Of a stretch of DNA of 64,000 nucleotides, positions 2,292 through 8,379 are shown one piece after another. Below the pieces are notes generated by a model. That model was not told the DNA's origin and ran no database searches. It worked only from the letters and a program-made list of their open reading frames with translations. Source of the DNA: Capnocytophaga gingivalis ATCC 33624 (GTDB taxonomy: Bacteria; Bacteroidota; Bacteroidia; Flavobacteriales; Flavobacteriaceae); contig NZ_ACLQ01000018.1 in assembly GCF_000174755.1 (NCBI RefSeq), positions 1 to 64,000 on the forward strand, given 5' to 3'. Both the position numbers and the translations under genes were made by a program. The first letter of the stretch is position 1; each line of letters begins with the position of its first letter.

Positions 2292-2762
2292 ATGAAAGTA
2301 GCTTATTATACAGAAGAAGGATTAAAAGCACTTAAGGCAGAGCTAGATCAGCTACGAGATGTAGAGCGCCCAAGAGCCTCACAAGCTATAGCAGAAGCCA
2401 GAGATAAGGGAGACCTTTCTGAAAATGCTGAGTATGATGCTGCTAAGGAAGCACAAGGGCTTCTGGAGATGAAAATAGCCAAGTTAGAAGAGCTTGTCGC
2501 TAGTGCCCGTGTGATAGATGAATCACAGTTGGATACCTCAAAAGTATTGATCCTCTCAACAGTAAAACTCAAGAACAAAGCCAACAATGCTGTAATGACC
2601 TATACTTTGGTTGCTGAAAGTGAGGCAGACCTAAAGACAGGGAAGATTTCGGTAAGTTCTCCTATAGGGCGTGGGCTTTTAGGTAAGTCTGTAGGCGATA
2701 TAGCTGAGATAAAAGTACCTAATGGTATCCTTCAGATGGAAATTATAGAGATAACCCGCTAA
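2292..2762 (+). CDS. greA: Transcription elongation factor GreA
   Basis: The 156-residue protein has the N-terminal antiparallel coiled coil (about residues 1-75) and the C-terminal FKBP-like domain (about 80-156) of Gre factors. The coiled-coil tip carries the conserved acidic motif DLSENAEYDAA (Asp41, Glu44), which enters the RNA polymerase secondary channel and promotes cleavage of backtracked RNA. The C-terminal SPIGRGLLGKSVGD motif is also typical. Length matches the family (about 158). It is followed 12 nt later by a HIT-protein gene. A long leader with a terminator-like hairpin suggests transcriptional autoregulation. Confidence 0.96.
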   Translation: MKVAYYTEEGLKALKAELDQLRDVERPRASQAIAEARDKGDLSENAEYDAAKEAQGLLEMKIAKLEELVASARVIDESQLDTSKVLILSTVKLKNKANNAVMTYTLVAESEADLKTGKISVSSPIGRGLLGKSVGDIAEIKVPNGILQMEIIEITR

Positions 2763-2774
2763 TAAAGAATAACC

Positions 2775-3164
2775 ATGGCATCTATTTTTACTAAAATTAT
2801 CAACGGGGAGATACCCTGTTATAAGATAGCAGAAGACGAACATTGTTTTGCCTTTTTGGATATCAACCCCAATGCAATAGGACATACCTTGTGCATTCCC
2901 AAGAAAGAAGTAGATAAGCTTTTTGACTTGGATGAGACACTATATCACCACCTATTAGAGTTTGCCCGCAAGATAGCAATAGCTCAAGAGAAAGCTATTC
3001 CTTGCGAACGAGTAGGGATGGCGGTAGTAGGACTGGAAGTACATCACGCACACATACACCTGATTCCTATCTCGAGGATGAAAGAAATGACCTTTGAGGA
3101 AAAGGTAAGCCTTACAAATGAAGAATTTCAAGAGGTAGCCGATAAGATAAAATCTTACCTATAA
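2775..3164 (+). CDS. HIT family protein (histidine-triad nucleotide hydrolase)
   Basis: The 129-residue protein carries the histidine triad HAHIHLI at residues 91-97 (His91, His93, His95) near the C-terminus and the family's N-terminal FTKIINGEIPCYKI and HTLCIPKKEV motifs. HIT proteins cleave nucleoside phosphoramidates or dinucleotide polyphosphates; the exact substrate cannot be read from sequence. The start lies 12 nt after greA, so it is probably co-transcribed, and a terminator follows at 3194-3230. Confidence 0.93.
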   Translation: MASIFTKIINGEIPCYKIAEDEHCFAFLDINPNAIGHTLCIPKKEVDKLFDLDETLYHHLLEFARKIAIAQEKAIPCERVGMAVVGLEVHHAHIHLIPISRMKEMTFEEKVSLTNEEFQEVADKIKSYL

Positions 3165-3193
3165 TACAATAGGATTCAAGTATATTACAAGAG

Positions 3194-3230
3194 AACTTTG
3201 TCAAGGGTTTTATGCTTTGACAAAGTTTTT
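3194..3230 (+). terminator. Terminator after greA-HIT
   Basis: AACTTTGTCAA (3194-3204) pairs perfectly with TTGACAAAGTT (3217-3227), followed by T residues. Confidence 0.85.
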
Positions 3231-3276
3231 CATTTAAAAAATAAAACAATAAGGCTTATTTTTGATAAAAAATTCT

Positions 3277-3284
3277 TATATTTG
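3277..3284 (+). promoter_or_regulatory. -7 box for the aminolipid acyltransferase
   Basis: TATATTTG matches the -7 consensus. The -33 region has only TT at the right distance, so the match is partial. It lies 80 nt before the start codon. Confidence 0.5.
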
Positions 3285-3363
3285 CAATCTGAAAAAACAG
3301 TCTGTTTTTCTCATACAAAAAATCTATTTTAGAGAGACATTATCAAAAGATTTATGACAACAT

Positions 3364-5166
3364 ATGGGGTTAATCACAGCAAAAGAGTTAGCTAAAGCTA
3401 TCAAGATAGATAAGTTAGGATTTGTAGGGACTTCTGTGGGCTGGGGGCTTTTACACCTACTACGCTTGGCACCATTGAATAGAATATATGATAGGAACAA
3501 GCATTTGCAAGGGGTGGAGTTTCTTTCAGCATTGCTTAAGGAGTTCAAGGTACATTATGAAGTTCCAGAGGAAGACCTCAGAAAGATCCCCAAGGAAGGA
3601 CCTTTTATTACTATCTCTAACCACCCTTTAGGAGGATTGGATGGAATCATACTCCTAAAGATGCTCATAGAGCAGCGGCCAGACTATAAAATAATGGCCA
3701 ATTTTTTGCTTTCCAAGATAGAACCTTTGGCTCCTTATATATTCCAAGTGAATCCGTTCGAGGATCATAAAGAGGCTTCCTCTAGCCTGCAAGGTTTTAA
3801 GCAAGCCATGGCACACTTAGCTGAGGGAAAACCCTTAGGAATGTTCCCCGCAGGAGAGGTTTCTACGCAGATTAGTGGGAATATTTATGTGGATAAGACT
3901 TGGGACAAATCGGCTATTAAGCTTATCAAAAAAGCGAATGTGCCTATTATCCCTATCTATTTCCATGCTAAGAATAGTCCTTTGTTCTACCAATTGGCTA
4001 AGCAGAGTGATATATTGCGTACAGCTAAGCTTCCTTCAGAGCTACTTACCCAGAAGAATAAGAGCATAAAAATCCGTATAGGGCGACCTATATTACCTAA
4101 GACACAGGATGAAATAGAGGATTTGTATGAGTTCTCCAATTTCCTTCGCAAGAAGACCTATCTGCTCTCGAATACTTATGAGCAGAAGAAGCATTTTAGA
4201 CCCTTTGCCTCGATGATAAAGGTCAATACTAACAAGGATCCAGAGGAAGTAGCCCCTCCTATAGCTGAGGAACTATTGGAAAAGGAAATAGAAGCTCTAC
4301 GTCAGCAGAAGGGTACACGCTTATTACAACACAAAGAATATGAGATATTTTTAGCTAAGGCTGAGTATATTCCTAATATTCTTCATGAAATAGGTCGATT
4401 AAGAGAAATTACTTTCCGTGAAGTAGGGGAGGGTACCAACCTCTCTATTGATTTGGACGAATATGATACTTACTATCGTCATCTTTTCCTTTGGGAGAGT
4501 GACACCAAGCGAATAGTAGGCGCCTATCGTATGGGCTTAGGGAGTGATTTCTTCGATATGTATGGGGTGAATGGTTTTTATACTCATAGCTTGTTCCGAT
4601 TTGATTCTGAGCTACATACCATGCTTCGGCAGACTATAGAGATGGGTCGTGCCTTTGTAGTGAGTGAGTATCAACAAAAGCCGATGCCTCTATTCCTACT
4701 CTGGAAAGGGATTGCCTTGACAACACTACATTTCCCAGAACATAAGTACCTATTGGGAGGTGTGAGTATCTCCAACCAATTCTCGGACTTTTCCAAATCG
4801 CTGATGATAGAGTTCATGAAATCCAATTTCTATGACCCTTATATAGCTCAGTATGTGAAGCCTAAGAAGGAATATAAAGTAAAGCTCAAGGATGCTGATA
4901 AGGATTTTATCTTTGATGAGACCCAGTCAGACCTTAACAAATTCGACAAAATTATAGACGAATTGGAACCAGGCGACCTACGCTTACCTGTACTCATTAA
5001 GAAGTATATAAAGCAGAATGCCAAAGTGATCGCTTTCAATGTGGATCCACTCTTTAACAATGCAGTAGATGGGCTTATGTATATTCGCATAGATGATCTC
5101 CCAGAAAGTACCATCAAGCCAGCTATAGAGGAGTTCCAGTCCCAGTTGGAGAAAGGAGAATCCTGA
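3364..5166 (+). CDS. Bifunctional aminolipid acyltransferase (OlsF-type)
   Basis: The 600-residue protein is a fusion. The N-terminal half (about 60-290) is a PlsC-like O-acyltransferase with catalytic motif NHPLGGLD (His87, Asp93) and a second motif FPAGEVS in place of FPEGTRS. The C-terminal half (about 330-560) is a GNAT-fold N-acyltransferase of the OlsB/hemolysin type (GAYRMGLGSDF; the ELGR-like EMGRAFV). This order is that of OlsF, which makes ornithine lipid in one protein: the C-terminal domain N-acylates the amino acid and the N-terminal domain O-acylates the product. In Bacteroidota related enzymes make glycine or other aminolipids, so the amino acid is uncertain. It faces the thiamin receptor gene and shares a palindromic end with it. 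Confidence 0.85.
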   Translation: MGLITAKELAKAIKIDKLGFVGTSVGWGLLHLLRLAPLNRIYDRNKHLQGVEFLSALLKEFKVHYEVPEEDLRKIPKEGPFITISNHPLGGLDGIILLKMLIEQRPDYKIMANFLLSKIEPLAPYIFQVNPFEDHKEASSSLQGFKQAMAHLAEGKPLGMFPAGEVSTQISGNIYVDKTWDKSAIKLIKKANVPIIPIYFHAKNSPLFYQLAKQSDILRTAKLPSELLTQKNKSIKIRIGRPILPKTQDEIEDLYEFSNFLRKKTYLLSNTYEQKKHFRPFASMIKVNTNKDPEEVAPPIAEELLEKEIEALRQQKGTRLLQHKEYEIFLAKAEYIPNILHEIGRLREITFREVGEGTNLSIDLDEYDTYYRHLFLWESDTKRIVGAYRMGLGSDFFDMYGVNGFYTHSLFRFDSELHTMLRQTIEMGRAFVVSEYQQKPMPLFLLWKGIALTTLHFPEHKYLLGGVSISNQFSDFSKSLMIEFMKSNFYDPYIAQYVKPKKEYKVKLKDADKDFIFDETQSDLNKFDKIIDELEPGDLRLPVLIKKYIKQNAKVIAFNVDPLFNNAVDGLMYIRIDDLPESTIKPAIEEFQSQLEKGES

Positions 5167-5304: not shown

Positions 5305-7416
5305 TTAGAAAGTAAAGGTGATTCCAACCATGCTATTGAGCTCAGCAGCAGGAAAATATAAAGGTTTTCCAGAAGCATATCTTCCATGAGCTACATACTT
5401 CTTGTTAAGTAAATTGTTGGCTGTTACAGAAAAAAGCACAGACTTGAACAACTTTTGAGGAAGAAGTTCATAAGAAAGGTGAAGAGAATGTACTAAAAAA
5501 TCTTCAAGCAGGGCATTCTCTTGGTTTTCATTGGTCAAGTATCTTTCTCCTATATATTTAGAAATCAGACTAATCTGGAAGTTATCAATAGGAGTGAAAG
5601 AGATTGTATTGCCCACAACCCAATCAGGAGAAAAAGAAATGTCAGTATTCCCTAAGTTAATTTTCTGAGTAGGTGTATTGGGATCCTGAATGGTATAGTC
5701 AATATTTTTATTTTTACTAAAAGACACATTAGGAGCCCACTCCCAGCGAGGGGCAAGTGCTACAGTAGCATCAATTTCTACCCCAGTACGATAGCTTTTT
5801 CCACTATTTTTGCGTAAAGAATAGCCCGTATTGCTGATATCACCAGTGAGCACCAACTGATCCTTATAGAGCATGTAGTATACATTGGCATTTAGTTTTA
5901 CTTTTTCAGAGATATAGCGCCATCCCAGCTCGAAGTCATTAACCTTTTCCTGGCGAGGAAGTTCAGCTCCTTTCTTGATATTCTTAGCATATTCCTTGTA
6001 ATCACTTCGGTTAGGCTCTTTGGTAGCATGAGCAAAAGAGAAATAGAGAGTACTGGCAGGGGAGAGAAAATAGCTAATACCTGCTTTAGGATTGATCATA
6101 GGAATAGACTCATTGACTTGAGTTTTCTTAAGAGTAGATCTGAAATTGACTCTTCTGTATTGAATATCCCCGAATAGGCTTAGCTTGGGAGCTATCTGCC
6201 AAGTGAGCTTAGTGAAGGCAGATACTTCCTGCTTGTTCCCGTATACCCAATCGGAGATGTCTCTGTAAGGGTTAGTAGCATTCTCAGTCCAAACGGTTTC
6301 GTTATAGTGATTTCCTTCGTATACATTGGCGGCTCCTCCTAAGATAAGCTCAATAGCCTGTTTGCGGTAGTTAGCAGAGAATACAGTACCATAGAAATCA
6401 TTGTCCAGCTGATAGCGAATCACGAAGTTTCCCTTACTGTCCCCCCAATTGTCCATCTGTTCCCAGTATCCTTTTCCTTTGGTATAGTGGAGAGAAAGAT
6501 TGGTATTCCAATGCTCATCCCACTTTTGAGTCCAATGAAGTTGGGCGTGATCTTGTTGGTAGTTATCAGTCTCGTTATCATAGAAAAATGTTTGTCCACC
6601 AACAGTATATTTTCCTGCGGGATTGTACCTTCTATCCTTTTGTAATTGTTCGGCAGATATTCCCTTGTAAGTAAGGTAAGTCTTTTCTGTACCTCCGAAG
6701 ACCAATCCCTTAATCAGTGTGTTGCTATTGCTATAAGCTCCCTGAAGGAAATAAGACTTAAGGTCAGAAGAAGCCCGATCAATATACCCATCAGAATTGA
6801 TTTTGGAGAAGCGTCCGGCCAGTTCGAAATGCTCCTTGAGTTTTCCTGTAGAGAACTTAATGGCATGCTTATGGGTCATATAAGATCCGAGGTAATTGGC
6901 AATTTGTGCATAAGGTTTTTCCGATGAGGCATCGGAAAGGATATTTAGGCTAGCCCCGAAGGCACCTGCCCCATTGGTAGAAGTACCTACTCCTCGCTGT
7001 AGCTGGATATTTTCGGCAGAGGAGGCGAAATCAGAGAGATTGTAGAAGAAAACCCCTTGAGATTCAGCATCATTGTAAGGAATCCCATTGATAGTCACAT
7101 TGGTTCGATAAGTGTCATTTCCACGAATAAAGAGCGCAGTGGCACCATAGCCTGCCCCATCTTCAGAATAAGAAACCACATTAGGTAGGTTGCCCAGCAA
7201 GATCGGTAGCTGTTGCCCAGTGTTTTTTTGTTGGATTTCTTTTTTAGACACATTGGAGAAACTTATAGGAGTGTTTTCTCGGGCGCGGATACCTTGTACC
7301 ACGACCTCATCCAATGAGATAGTTTTCTCTGAGAGAGAATCCTTGATAGCGGGCATCTCTTGAGCAAAAGAGGGAAGCGAAAGAACTAATGCCCCACAAA
7401 ACAATGTTTTTTTCAT
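5305..7416 (-). CDS. TonB-dependent receptor for thiamin (TPP-riboswitch controlled)
   Basis: The 703-residue protein has a signal peptide ending SFAQ (about 18 residues), a TonB-box-like LDEVVVQG, a plug domain (about 50-160, with the RGNDTYRTNVTINGIPYND stretch) and a C-terminal beta-barrel ending in an aromatic residue (GITFTF). It imports a scarce solute across the outer membrane using TonB energy. The substrate is indicated by a TPP riboswitch with its own promoter and terminator immediately upstream (7469-7625), so thiamin or a precursor is the likely cargo, as for the riboswitch-controlled receptor of Bacteroides thetaiotaomicron. It has no N-terminal carboxypeptidase-like domain, unlike the receptor at 25.7 kb. 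Confidence 0.93.
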   Translation of the reverse strand: MKKTLFCGALVLSLPSFAQEMPAIKDSLSEKTISLDEVVVQGIRARENTPISFSNVSKKEIQQKNTGQQLPILLGNLPNVVSYSEDGAGYGATALFIRGNDTYRTNVTINGIPYNDAESQGVFFYNLSDFASSAENIQLQRGVGTSTNGAGAFGASLNILSDASSEKPYAQIANYLGSYMTHKHAIKFSTGKLKEHFELAGRFSKINSDGYIDRASSDLKSYFLQGAYSNSNTLIKGLVFGGTEKTYLTYKGISAEQLQKDRRYNPAGKYTVGGQTFFYDNETDNYQQDHAQLHWTQKWDEHWNTNLSLHYTKGKGYWEQMDNWGDSKGNFVIRYQLDNDFYGTVFSANYRKQAIELILGGAANVYEGNHYNETVWTENATNPYRDISDWVYGNKQEVSAFTKLTWQIAPKLSLFGDIQYRRVNFRSTLKKTQVNESIPMINPKAGISYFLSPASTLYFSFAHATKEPNRSDYKEYAKNIKKGAELPRQEKVNDFELGWRYISEKVKLNANVYYMLYKDQLVLTGDISNTGYSLRKNSGKSYRTGVEIDATVALAPRWEWAPNVSFSKNKNIDYTIQDPNTPTQKINLGNTDISFSPDWVVGNTISFTPIDNFQISLISKYIGERYLTNENQENALLEDFLVHSLHLSYELLPQKLFKSVLFSVTANNLLNKKYVAHGRYASGKPLYFPAAELNSMVGITFTF

Positions 7417-7468
7417 TGTAAAAAAGCGTTTTTTACAAATAAAGGGGCATTATTTGTCATTAGATAAT

Positions 7469-7510
7469 AAAAAAAGGCTTATCTTTGCTACCCAAGTGCA
7501 AAAATAAGCC
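7469..7510 (-). terminator. Expression-platform terminator of the TPP riboswitch
   Basis: On the minus strand GGCTTAT and TTTGC pair with GCAAA and ATAAGCC around an ACTTGGGTA loop, followed by seven T. It lies between the aptamer and the receptor start, as expected for control by transcription termination when TPP is bound. Confidence 0.85.
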
Positions 7511-7539
7511 AAGTGATATAGTAATTAGATAGACTTCAT

Positions 7540-7612
7540 TTTTTCCTTTGACTGCATTACCAGCCTAAGTTCTATGGGTATAATCTCAGCTTTTTACAGC
7601 ACCCCTTGAGAT
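7540..7612 (-). promoter_or_regulatory. TPP (thiamin pyrophosphate) riboswitch
   Basis: Read on the minus strand, the conserved blocks appear in order and spacing: GGGGTGC (7599-7605), GCTGAGAT (7583-7590), TACCC (7576-7580), GAAC, CTGG, TAATGC (7554-7559) and the closing AAGGAAA. These are the P2-P5 core signatures of the THI element. The receptor gene begins about 125 nt downstream after a terminator hairpin. The riboswitch would switch off receptor synthesis when intracellular TPP is plentiful. Confidence 0.94.
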
Positions 7613-7617
7613 GACCA

Positions 7618-7625
7618 CAAAATTA
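7618..7625 (-). promoter_or_regulatory. -7 box of the TPP-riboswitch transcript
   Basis: TAATTTTG on the minus strand places the transcript start at the 5' edge of the aptamer. The -33 position reads ATT, not TTG. Its presence downstream of trmN6 means the receptor has its own promoter. Confidence 0.6.
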
Positions 7626-7665: not shown

Positions 7666-8379
7666 TTAGAATCGTAAATAAAAATTTTTGGTAAGTTCTT
7701 GATATTCTTGTGTATATTGATGGCGTTCTTTTTCGATAATAAGCTTTTCAGCAGTAGGCAAAGGGCTTTCCTGAGCACGTAATAAAAGTAGGCTTCGCTT
7801 TATAGGAGAGAGGGAATTCCCCTGAACATGAAGGATTTGAGTAGGGAAGAGGCCGTTTTCCATTGCTATTTGTAAAAAAGACTCCTCTTCTCTGTAGGGA
7901 ATAATCACAGAGAAAAAGCCCTGAGGGGCTAATAATAAAGGAATACAAGAGAGTAAATCGGAGAAAGGGAGATACTCATTGGAACGTGCCATAGCTCGTA
8001 CCCTGTCGGGTGAGAGCGTATTTTCGGAGAAAAAAGGCGGATTACTGATGATAAGATCATAGGCAGTAGCACTTGTCGAGGCGAAATCACGGATATCCAT
8101 TTCGAAGACTTCAACAGCCTGATGCCAAGGGGAGAGAGATACGTTCAGCCTACATTCCTTGGCCGATAGAGGGTGAAGCTCTACCGCATGGATATGGGAG
8201 AGAGGGAAGCGCTGTGCCATCATCAGGGAAAGTACTCCCGTTCCGGTTCCTATATCTAATATATAATTAGGATTGATAGCAGGTGTCCATGCTCCCAGTA
8301 ATACACTATCGGTGCCTACCTTCATAGGGCTATACTCCTGAGAGATAGAAAATTGTTTGAAGCGAAAAGGACTGCTCAT
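7666..8379 (-). CDS. trmN6: tRNA1(Val) A37 N6-methyltransferase TrmN6
   Basis: The 237-residue class I SAM methyltransferase has the SAM-binding motif LDIGTGTGVLSLMMAQ (about 41-56) and the amino-methylase motif NPPFF (about 111-115), followed by SENTLSPDRVRAMAR, which is characteristic of the YfiC/TrmN6 subfamily. The enzyme methylates N6 of A37 in tRNA1(Val). The start lies 2 nt after the smpB stop, so the two translation-related genes form an operon. RNA specificity is inferred from the family. Confidence 0.9.
   Translation of the reverse strand: MSSPFRFKQFSISQEYSPMKVGTDSVLLGAWTPAINPNYILDIGTGTGVLSLMMAQRFPLSHIHAVELHPLSAKECRLNVSLSPWHQAVEVFEMDIRDFASTSATAYDLIISNPPFFSENTLSPDRVRAMARSNEYLPFSDLLSCIPLLLAPQGFFSVIIPYREEESFLQIAMENGLFPTQILHVQGNSLSPIKRSLLLLRAQESPLPTAEKLIIEKERHQYTQEYQELTKNFYLRF

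Follow-up and report, generated by a model that had tools for sequence, protein, structure and literature searches.

The gene for a TonB-dependent receptor in Capnocytophaga gingivalis ATCC 33624, located on the minus strand of the 64,000-nucleotide stretch analysed here (contig NZ_ACLQ01000018.1, positions 1 to 64,000; hereafter the window), is preceded by a TPP aptamer core, a 5' UCUCA strand and a start-codon block, all of them conserved in relatives. Together, these parts probably form a TPP-responsive OFF switch that controls a thiamin-uptake receptor, and that would do without P1, use P2 as its switching helix and either free or hide the start codon. That most Flavobacteriaceae carry a TPP switch of this design is, in our judgement, as likely as not: an RNA that begins without P1, has UCUCA at its 5' end as a strand opposing the aptamer, and exchanges its P2 strands with the loop of a hairpin by the start codon. 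In Capnocytophaga the terminator loop would take part in this exchange too, so that two loops would read the opening of P2.

On the minus strand, the parts follow one another as promoter box, TPP aptamer, terminator hairpin, start-codon block and receptor gene, the latter encoding 703 amino acids. A preliminary description of this DNA had reported an aptamer core, a terminator stem with seven T and a promoter box directly before the receptor, and all three were found where it had placed them; it did not mention the missing P1, the 5' UCUCA strand or the start-codon block.

A TPP aptamer core below the annotation threshold

The aptamer, comprising P2 to P5 but no P1, matches RF00059 at positions 7616-7527 of the minus strand with 39.9 bits and an E value of 1.3e-6 (cmscan, 321 nt searched). 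Over the whole 2.66-Mb genome the E value of this match is 2.5e-6, and the next match reaches 15 bits (E 3.2). Since the gathering score of RF00059 is 54.3 bits, a default scan of the window omits the aptamer. The alignment spans the full model (positions 1-105), with most P1 pairs non-standard and the optional arm absent, and it is to these two features that the low score can be attributed. The core itself is intact, namely, P2, CUGAGA, ACCC, GAAC, UAAU and P4/P5.

A score of 39.9 against 54.3 bits could be the mark of a decayed aptamer without function, which we consider very improbable: CUGAGA, ACCC and GAAC are invariant across 24 Capnocytophaga-type leaders, and the pattern UCUCA-GGGGUGC-CUGAGA occurs in all 18 good-quality Capnocytophaga genomes (19 of 20 overall). 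The preliminary description had proposed that a covariance score below threshold would speak against a TPP riboswitch. The score does fall short, but because the P1 helix is missing and the type is conserved, the threshold misses this kind of aptamer and the riboswitch reading stands. The same shortfall recurs throughout the family. With stricter filters, and among the matches listed, 140 of 149 Flavobacteriaceae genomes had a TPP match with an E value no higher than 0.01, and only 44 had one above the Rfam cut-off, so that many thiamin switches in the family escape threshold-based annotation.

At the predicted 5' end of the RNA, the place of P1 is taken by AUCUCA (7607-7612, minus strand), whose complement UGAGAU lies at 7588-7583. 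UGAGA, of which UCUCA is the reverse complement, forms the thiamin-binding junction of the aptamer, where, according to the accessible text of PMC2258182, TPP intercalates with its pyrimidine ring. Upstream lies the promoter -7 box TAATTTTG (7618-7625, minus strand), of the TAnnTTTG type, as in the leaders of relatives. Of 111 parsed leaders, 110 have such a box in the 24 nt that precede UCUCA, and in 105 of the 111 the last TTTG ends 5-7 nt ahead of UCUCA. In Flavobacterium psychrophilum the TAnnTTTG box is placed at -12 to -5 (PMC9723704, as far as its available text goes), so that transcription in the window would start at about 7613-7612 and RNAs of this type would be expected to begin 1-3 nt before UCUCA. 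A further TAnnTTTG-type box, TATCTTTG, occurs on the plus strand at 7480-7487, within the terminator stem, and may be there by chance.

In the Flavobacteriaceae set, 82 of 88 receptor leaders have UCUCA no more than 16 nt ahead of the GGGG strand of P2, compared with one of 53 receptor leaders outside the set and none of four thiC-class leaders; ACUUU stands at the UCUCA position in all five thiC-class leaders recognised. These counts exclude the 17 of 109 fetched loci that misfit the aptamer expression, as well as 26 elements of this Flavobacteriaceae set that received no downstream class (four with TCTCA and four with the strict block, three of them having both), and the set so named includes one record named Bergeyella (L037). 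Within the order, UCUCA before GGGGUGC and CUGAGA was found in 26 of 119 genomes, six other families included, so the motif predates the Flavobacteriaceae. Five receptor leaders in the set have neither UCUCA nor the block (L121, L122, L131, L138 and L177), and these count against our model. In one of them, L122, the P2 flank has a different long complement further along the leader (duplex z -3.47), which is perhaps an independent solution.

Two other arrangements of the 5' end were considered and rejected. First, a classic P1 is not apparent, as UGAG within 14 nt 3' of the aptamer occurs in five of 110 leaders against 4.1 expected. Second, UCUCA does not have another copy of UGAGA as its partner, given that 107 of 111 leaders carry only the one in J3-2.

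The start-codon block and its proposed pairing with P2

After the terminator comes the start-codon block (7457-7414, minus strand), which is conserved in relatives and consists of two overlapping hairpins. Hairpin A (7435-7457), the proposed anti-sequestor, pairs ACAAAUAA (7457-7450) with UUAUUUGU (7442-7435) and carries GCCCCUU in its loop; it is supported by its sequence, by its counterpart in relatives and by covariation. Hairpin B (7416-7438), the proposed sequestor predicted by folding, pairs UUGUAAAAAA (7438-7429) with UUUUUUACAA (7425-7416), overlaps bases of hairpin A and extends to the AUG. Most leaders of this kind have the consensus GAAUAA-U-N-R-CCYC-UUU(U)-AUUC-G and then a second hairpin before the AUG; the window reads ACAAAUAA UGCCCC UUUAUUUGU, followed by the hairpin of UUGUAAAAAA and UUUUUUACAA that ends in AUG.

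The block pattern was found in 117 of 149 genomes, as a single match in 110 of these, and the reversed pattern in eight of 149 (counted from the table). The genome of the window is not among the 117, as its U-run is one shorter than the pattern. We fetched 40 block matches, picked by eye and mainly away from any listed Rfam match: 34 lie behind a TPP aptamer core, 33 of these showing the full order of parts, and the other six are stray matches elsewhere. The 34 include all eight block-bearing genomes that had no earlier TPP match (among the matches listed), seven of which have 75-101 nt from P2 to CUGAGA, the eighth, L208, being unparsed. In the seven leaders concerned (L202, L203, L204, L206, L207, L209 and L210), these 75-101 nt between P2 and the CUGAGA of J3-2 represent a long P3 insertion; none has a match at E 0.01 among the matches listed, yet the rest of the leader is intact.

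An expression for the full architecture parsed 111 of 140 loci. Thirteen of the 29 misfits were read by eye, yielding eight variants of the architecture and five loci without it, and the other 16 comprise the stray match L205, the locus L208, in which a block and an aptamer core but no UCUCA were found, and 14 loci outside the counts.

The pairing of hairpin A is supported as follows. First, in 101 of 110 distinct leaders its outer pair is G-C 88 times, A-U ten times, G-U twice and unpaired once; the inner five pairs of these leaders are largely fixed by the search expression, and the outer pair serves as the free test. The remaining nine leaders, of the Lutibacter type, have CGAU(U):(A)AUCG instead. 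Second, among 20 distinct Capnocytophaga-type leaders, seven of the 21 pairs of hairpin A and the terminator stem taken together are changed on both sides, which was seen in none of 500 shuffles, and sliding the pairing lowers the paired cells from 96% to about half. Counting against the model, the outermost pair drawn for hairpin A in the window is unpaired in nine of these 20 leaders.

When the start region is folded on its own, the AUG is hidden, being paired with a mean probability of 0.94 over 111 leaders, compared with 0.63 when the upstream sequence is shuffled and 0.58 in receptors outside the set, of which 30 of 55 have a placeable start. Its partner, in 93 of 111 leaders, is mainly the 11 nt after CCYC, including the 3' strand of hairpin A. 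The AUG of the window is paired with a probability of only 0.50, which counts against the model, and the window may thus have a weaker switch, or one in which the terminator takes a share. The mean energy cost of forcing hairpin A, over 109 of 111 leaders, is 5.6 kcal/mol, and the long-range duplex described below yields -11.8 kcal/mol.

AAGGGGU, the 5' strand of P2 with its flank, has its complement in RCCYCUU, the loop sequence of hairpin A. In the window, this proposed switching strand lies at 7601-7607 (minus strand) and is complementary to GCCCCUU at 7448-7442; this pairing, the terminator and hairpin B all occur in the unconstrained minimum-free-energy fold of the window leader. A purine (A or G), needed for pairing with U, stands before CCYC in 107 of 110 leaders. 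The aptamer itself fixes GGGG and UGAGA, which rules out full covariation with their partners and is a point against the model; run lengths were used instead. The length of the A-run before GGGG tracks that of the U-run after CCYC (Spearman 0.66, among related sequences). When nearest relatives were paired, seven of 53 pairs differed in both runs, six of the seven with the same sign (Fisher p 0.08), which makes the coupling only suggestive. L130, with an A-run of one and a U-run of five, goes against it. L039, which has no A-run, and L056, in which it is one, lack the U-run as well and retain hairpin A.

In energy, the duplex stands out from shuffled leaders only modestly, which counts against the model, with a mean z of -1.91 in 88 leaders of the set (34 of them below -2) and of -0.50 in 43 leaders outside it (set versus outside, p 1e-6). 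These 43 come from 53 outside leaders with an aptamer core, themselves found among 55 receptors outside the set. In the window z is -1.13, and it is near zero in L039 (-0.37), L056 and L171. In raw terms the duplex is stronger outside the set (-13.4 in the 43 leaders) than within it (-11.6), but outside there is no excess over shuffles. It is on complementarity, run lengths and energy that the proposed long-range helix rests.

It could be argued that UCUCA and the RCCYC loop do not act on the aptamer at all, being bound instead by a protein, by a small RNA or by the machinery that starts transcription. Conserved hairpin loops often bind proteins, and the fixed distance of UCUCA behind the TTTG of the promoter box (5-7 nt in 105 of 111 leaders) places it at the promoter edge, where it may have a role as DNA. 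We nevertheless hold this to be a decidedly unlikely account, for ACUUU, not UCUCA, occupies the same place in the five recognised thiC-class leaders, the block is both complementary to the aptamer and found together with it, and in L039 and L056 the U-run is missing along with the A-run, of which at most one base is left.

The OFF switch that we favour could operate as follows. The 5' end of the RNA would coincide with (R)UCUCA or lie just ahead of it. As long as TPP is absent, UCUCA can bind the UGAGA of the thiamin-binding junction and the pocket would stay open. At the same time, the P2 strand AAGGGGU would pair with RCCYCUU in hairpin A, whose loop lies close to the start codon; this pairing would hold hairpin A in place, leave the AUG free and allow the receptor to be made. 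With TPP bound, GGGU would pair with ACCC in P2 and hairpin A would lose its support, so that hairpin B, which shares bases with hairpin A, could pair with the start codon and no receptor would be made. An OFF switch fits both the cost of hairpin A relative to the yield of the duplex and the pairing of the AUG in isolation. The sign, however, is not fixed by the energies alone, and an ON switch, in which TPP opens the start codon, might be envisaged. This we regard as improbable, because the isolated start region hides the AUG and the strand able to free it is itself free only without ligand. In addition, bacterial TPP switches of uptake and synthesis genes mostly repress.

A terminator as a possible second layer in Capnocytophaga

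The terminator hairpin of the window (7476-7510, minus strand) has a stem of 13 pairs, GGCUUAUUUUUGC with GCAAAGAUAAGCC, a loop UGGGUA at 7494-7489 and a fold energy of about -17 to -18 kcal/mol, and is followed by UUUUUUU at 7475-7469. It is the second most stable of the 23 T-tract hairpins that an energy scan detected on the two strands of the window. Its stem is conserved, with covariation, in the 24 Capnocytophaga-type leaders (20 distinct), where five of 13 pairs show two-sided changes. Its loop is complementary to UACCCA, the 3' strand of P2 (7575-7580, minus strand), and in the 24 leaders UACCCA and UGGGU are invariant, the final A of the loop being nearly so. In Capnocytophaga, the terminator may thus provide a second layer of control, in which P2, once open, could be held by two loops, one for each of its strands; the loop of the terminator may instead block termination. 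That the hairpin is a repeat of the genome was rejected, as a loose pattern of its loop has three matches genome-wide, one of them being the window leader.

Such a terminator suggests an ordinary transcription attenuator, in which TPP favours the hairpin at 7510-7469 and the start-codon hairpins are separate and unregulated. Its strength and its conservation with covariation in Capnocytophaga speak for this explanation, which we nonetheless consider unlikely on three grounds. First, as a mechanism for the whole family the terminator had to be rejected: a scan for perfect stems found it in one of 62 leaders, and an energy-based scan found a terminator-like hairpin in 26 of 106, a minority, although above chance (20 of 530 shuffles). 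Second, the block is common, both by its count in genomes (117 of 149) and by its position behind an aptamer core (34 of the 40 fetched matches). Third, no antiterminator strand for this terminator was found in the window. The combination of riboswitch and terminator given in the preliminary description thus captures a strong terminator that is indeed present, but it is incomplete as a mechanism, since it overlooks the start-codon block. With a terminator in only 26 of 106 leaders and the block common, control of translation is more likely to be the main layer.

The hairpin differs outside Capnocytophaga. RCCCC or RCYCC occurs in this stretch of the leader in seven of 19 non-Capnocytophaga leaders with a terminator, compared with four of 84 leaders without one (p 0.0005), the latter including four too short for the energy-based scan. 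By eye, the motif lies at the start of the hairpin and is again complementary to GGGGU, as if the same P2 strand acted as antiterminator in these leaders.

A predicted thiamin importer in a genome without ThiC and ThiE

The receptor gene (5305-7416, minus strand) stands alone, since the minus-strand gene upstream of it ends at 7666 and the one downstream lies on the opposite strand. A domain search found both the Plug (PF07715) and the beta-barrel (PF00593) domains in its product. Its closest relatives are from Capnocytophaga, with 75% identity to that of oral taxon 338 (best 80 of 135 relatives). A TPP aptamer core occurs within 900 nt upstream of 78 of these best 80 of 135, and the same expression has no match elsewhere in 1.98 million strand-bases of their loci; a first, stricter expression matched 64 of these 80. 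The receptor family is thereby tied to thiamin, and the import of thiamin by the window receptor, as put forward in the preliminary description, is well supported by the aptamer linkage, which makes it a predicted receptor for thiamin or TPP. Other routes to the substrate were less informative, as NCBIfam gave no equivalog above its cut-off for this receptor, and solved structures offered one weak match, to the pesticin receptor 4epa, which was set aside as uninformative.

Among the best 80 of 135 relatives, those in records named Bacteroides sp. (L099 and L108) are 36% identical to the window receptor. The record named Bergeyella cardium (L037) has a receptor 61% identical to it, a Capnocytophaga-type leader and the same terminator loop, and may perhaps have acquired receptor and leader by gene transfer.

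The earlier suggestion that uptake may matter to this organism, made from the lack of thiamin synthesis genes in the window, is borne out beyond it: the check for thi biosynthesis genes gave no match to ThiC or to TMP-TENI (ThiE) in the whole genome, which lends support to thiamin import. ThiC is absent from 18 of 20 Capnocytophaga genomes, and the other two (G154 and G166; loci L113, L114, L118 and L119) keep ThiC and TMP-TENI above cut-off. The receptor would thus bring in thiamin or its phosphates for a cell without ThiC and ThiE.

Each of the 20 genomes has one PnuC-family transporter. In the genome of the window, where NCBIfam assigns it to PnuC above cut-off, it lies between a Thiamine_BP (PF01910) protein and an AAA_28 (NadR-like) kinase; the three adjoin on the minus strand of another contig (C19, L180) at 2462-3892. 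This setting suggests a role of the transporter in thiamin. TPK_catalytic had no match in the 20 genomes, in a search that matched only seven of 14 control genomes, and it is tempting to speculate that the NadR-like kinase might stand in for thiamin pyrophosphokinase.

Comparison with known systems

If our model is correct, these leaders contain a TPP switch in which P2, and not P1, is the switching helix, and hiding the AUG would be a natural means of control where Shine-Dalgarno sites are little used. Indeed, translation start of the flavobacterial type relies on other signals, as stated in the available portion of PMC9723704. The type without P1 is widespread in the Flavobacteriaceae and overlooked by thresholds, its mechanism being the part that we infer, and the switch points both to the substrate of the receptor and to a dependence on outside thiamin in Capnocytophaga. 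We found no description of a TPP element of the Bacteroidota without P1 and switching by P2 in the open-access literature, as far as its accessible text goes (including PMC10907184), subscription journals aside.

Predicting the substrate of a TonB receptor from its riboswitch, which the preliminary description held to be rarely possible, succeeds here but is not new. According to the accessible text of PMC5613172, BT2390 of Bacteroides thetaiotaomicron (OMthi), a TonB receptor behind a TPP aptamer and a predicted thiamin importer, was assigned as thiamin receptor through its riboswitch and tested by gene deletion. The two systems are alike by this description, but the strict start-codon block is present in none of 53 leaders outside the Flavobacteriaceae set. 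The same source records that the transport operons of B. thetaiotaomicron did not change significantly with thiamine in RNA-seq, which would fit control at translation.

Like other members of RF00059 (the THI element), the flavobacterial type has the core of P2, J3-2 CUGAGA, ACCC, GAAC and UAAU in a 5' leader, here before a gene whose own link to thiamin is drawn from the aptamer; it differs in lacking P1, in carrying UCUCA where the RNA is predicted to begin, in its proposed switching helix, P2, and in a score below threshold. The thiC-class TPP switches of the same bacterial family (for example L004 and L017) share the aptamer but have a P1-like ACUUU / AAAGU, no UCUCA and no start-codon block. 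According to the part of PMC2258182 open to us, it is the P1 switching helix that, in the majority of riboswitches, provides bases for pairing with the expression platform, and a TPP model built from terminator-type sequences has two nucleotides common to aptamer and platform (PMC13273304, available text). A parallel to a loop pairing with a strand as a switch is offered by AdoCbl riboswitches, in which a C-rich loop forms a pseudoknot with sequence outside the core (PMC2258182, same part); these have another aptamer and ligand, whereas the C-rich loop of the flavobacterial leaders sits in the expression platform.
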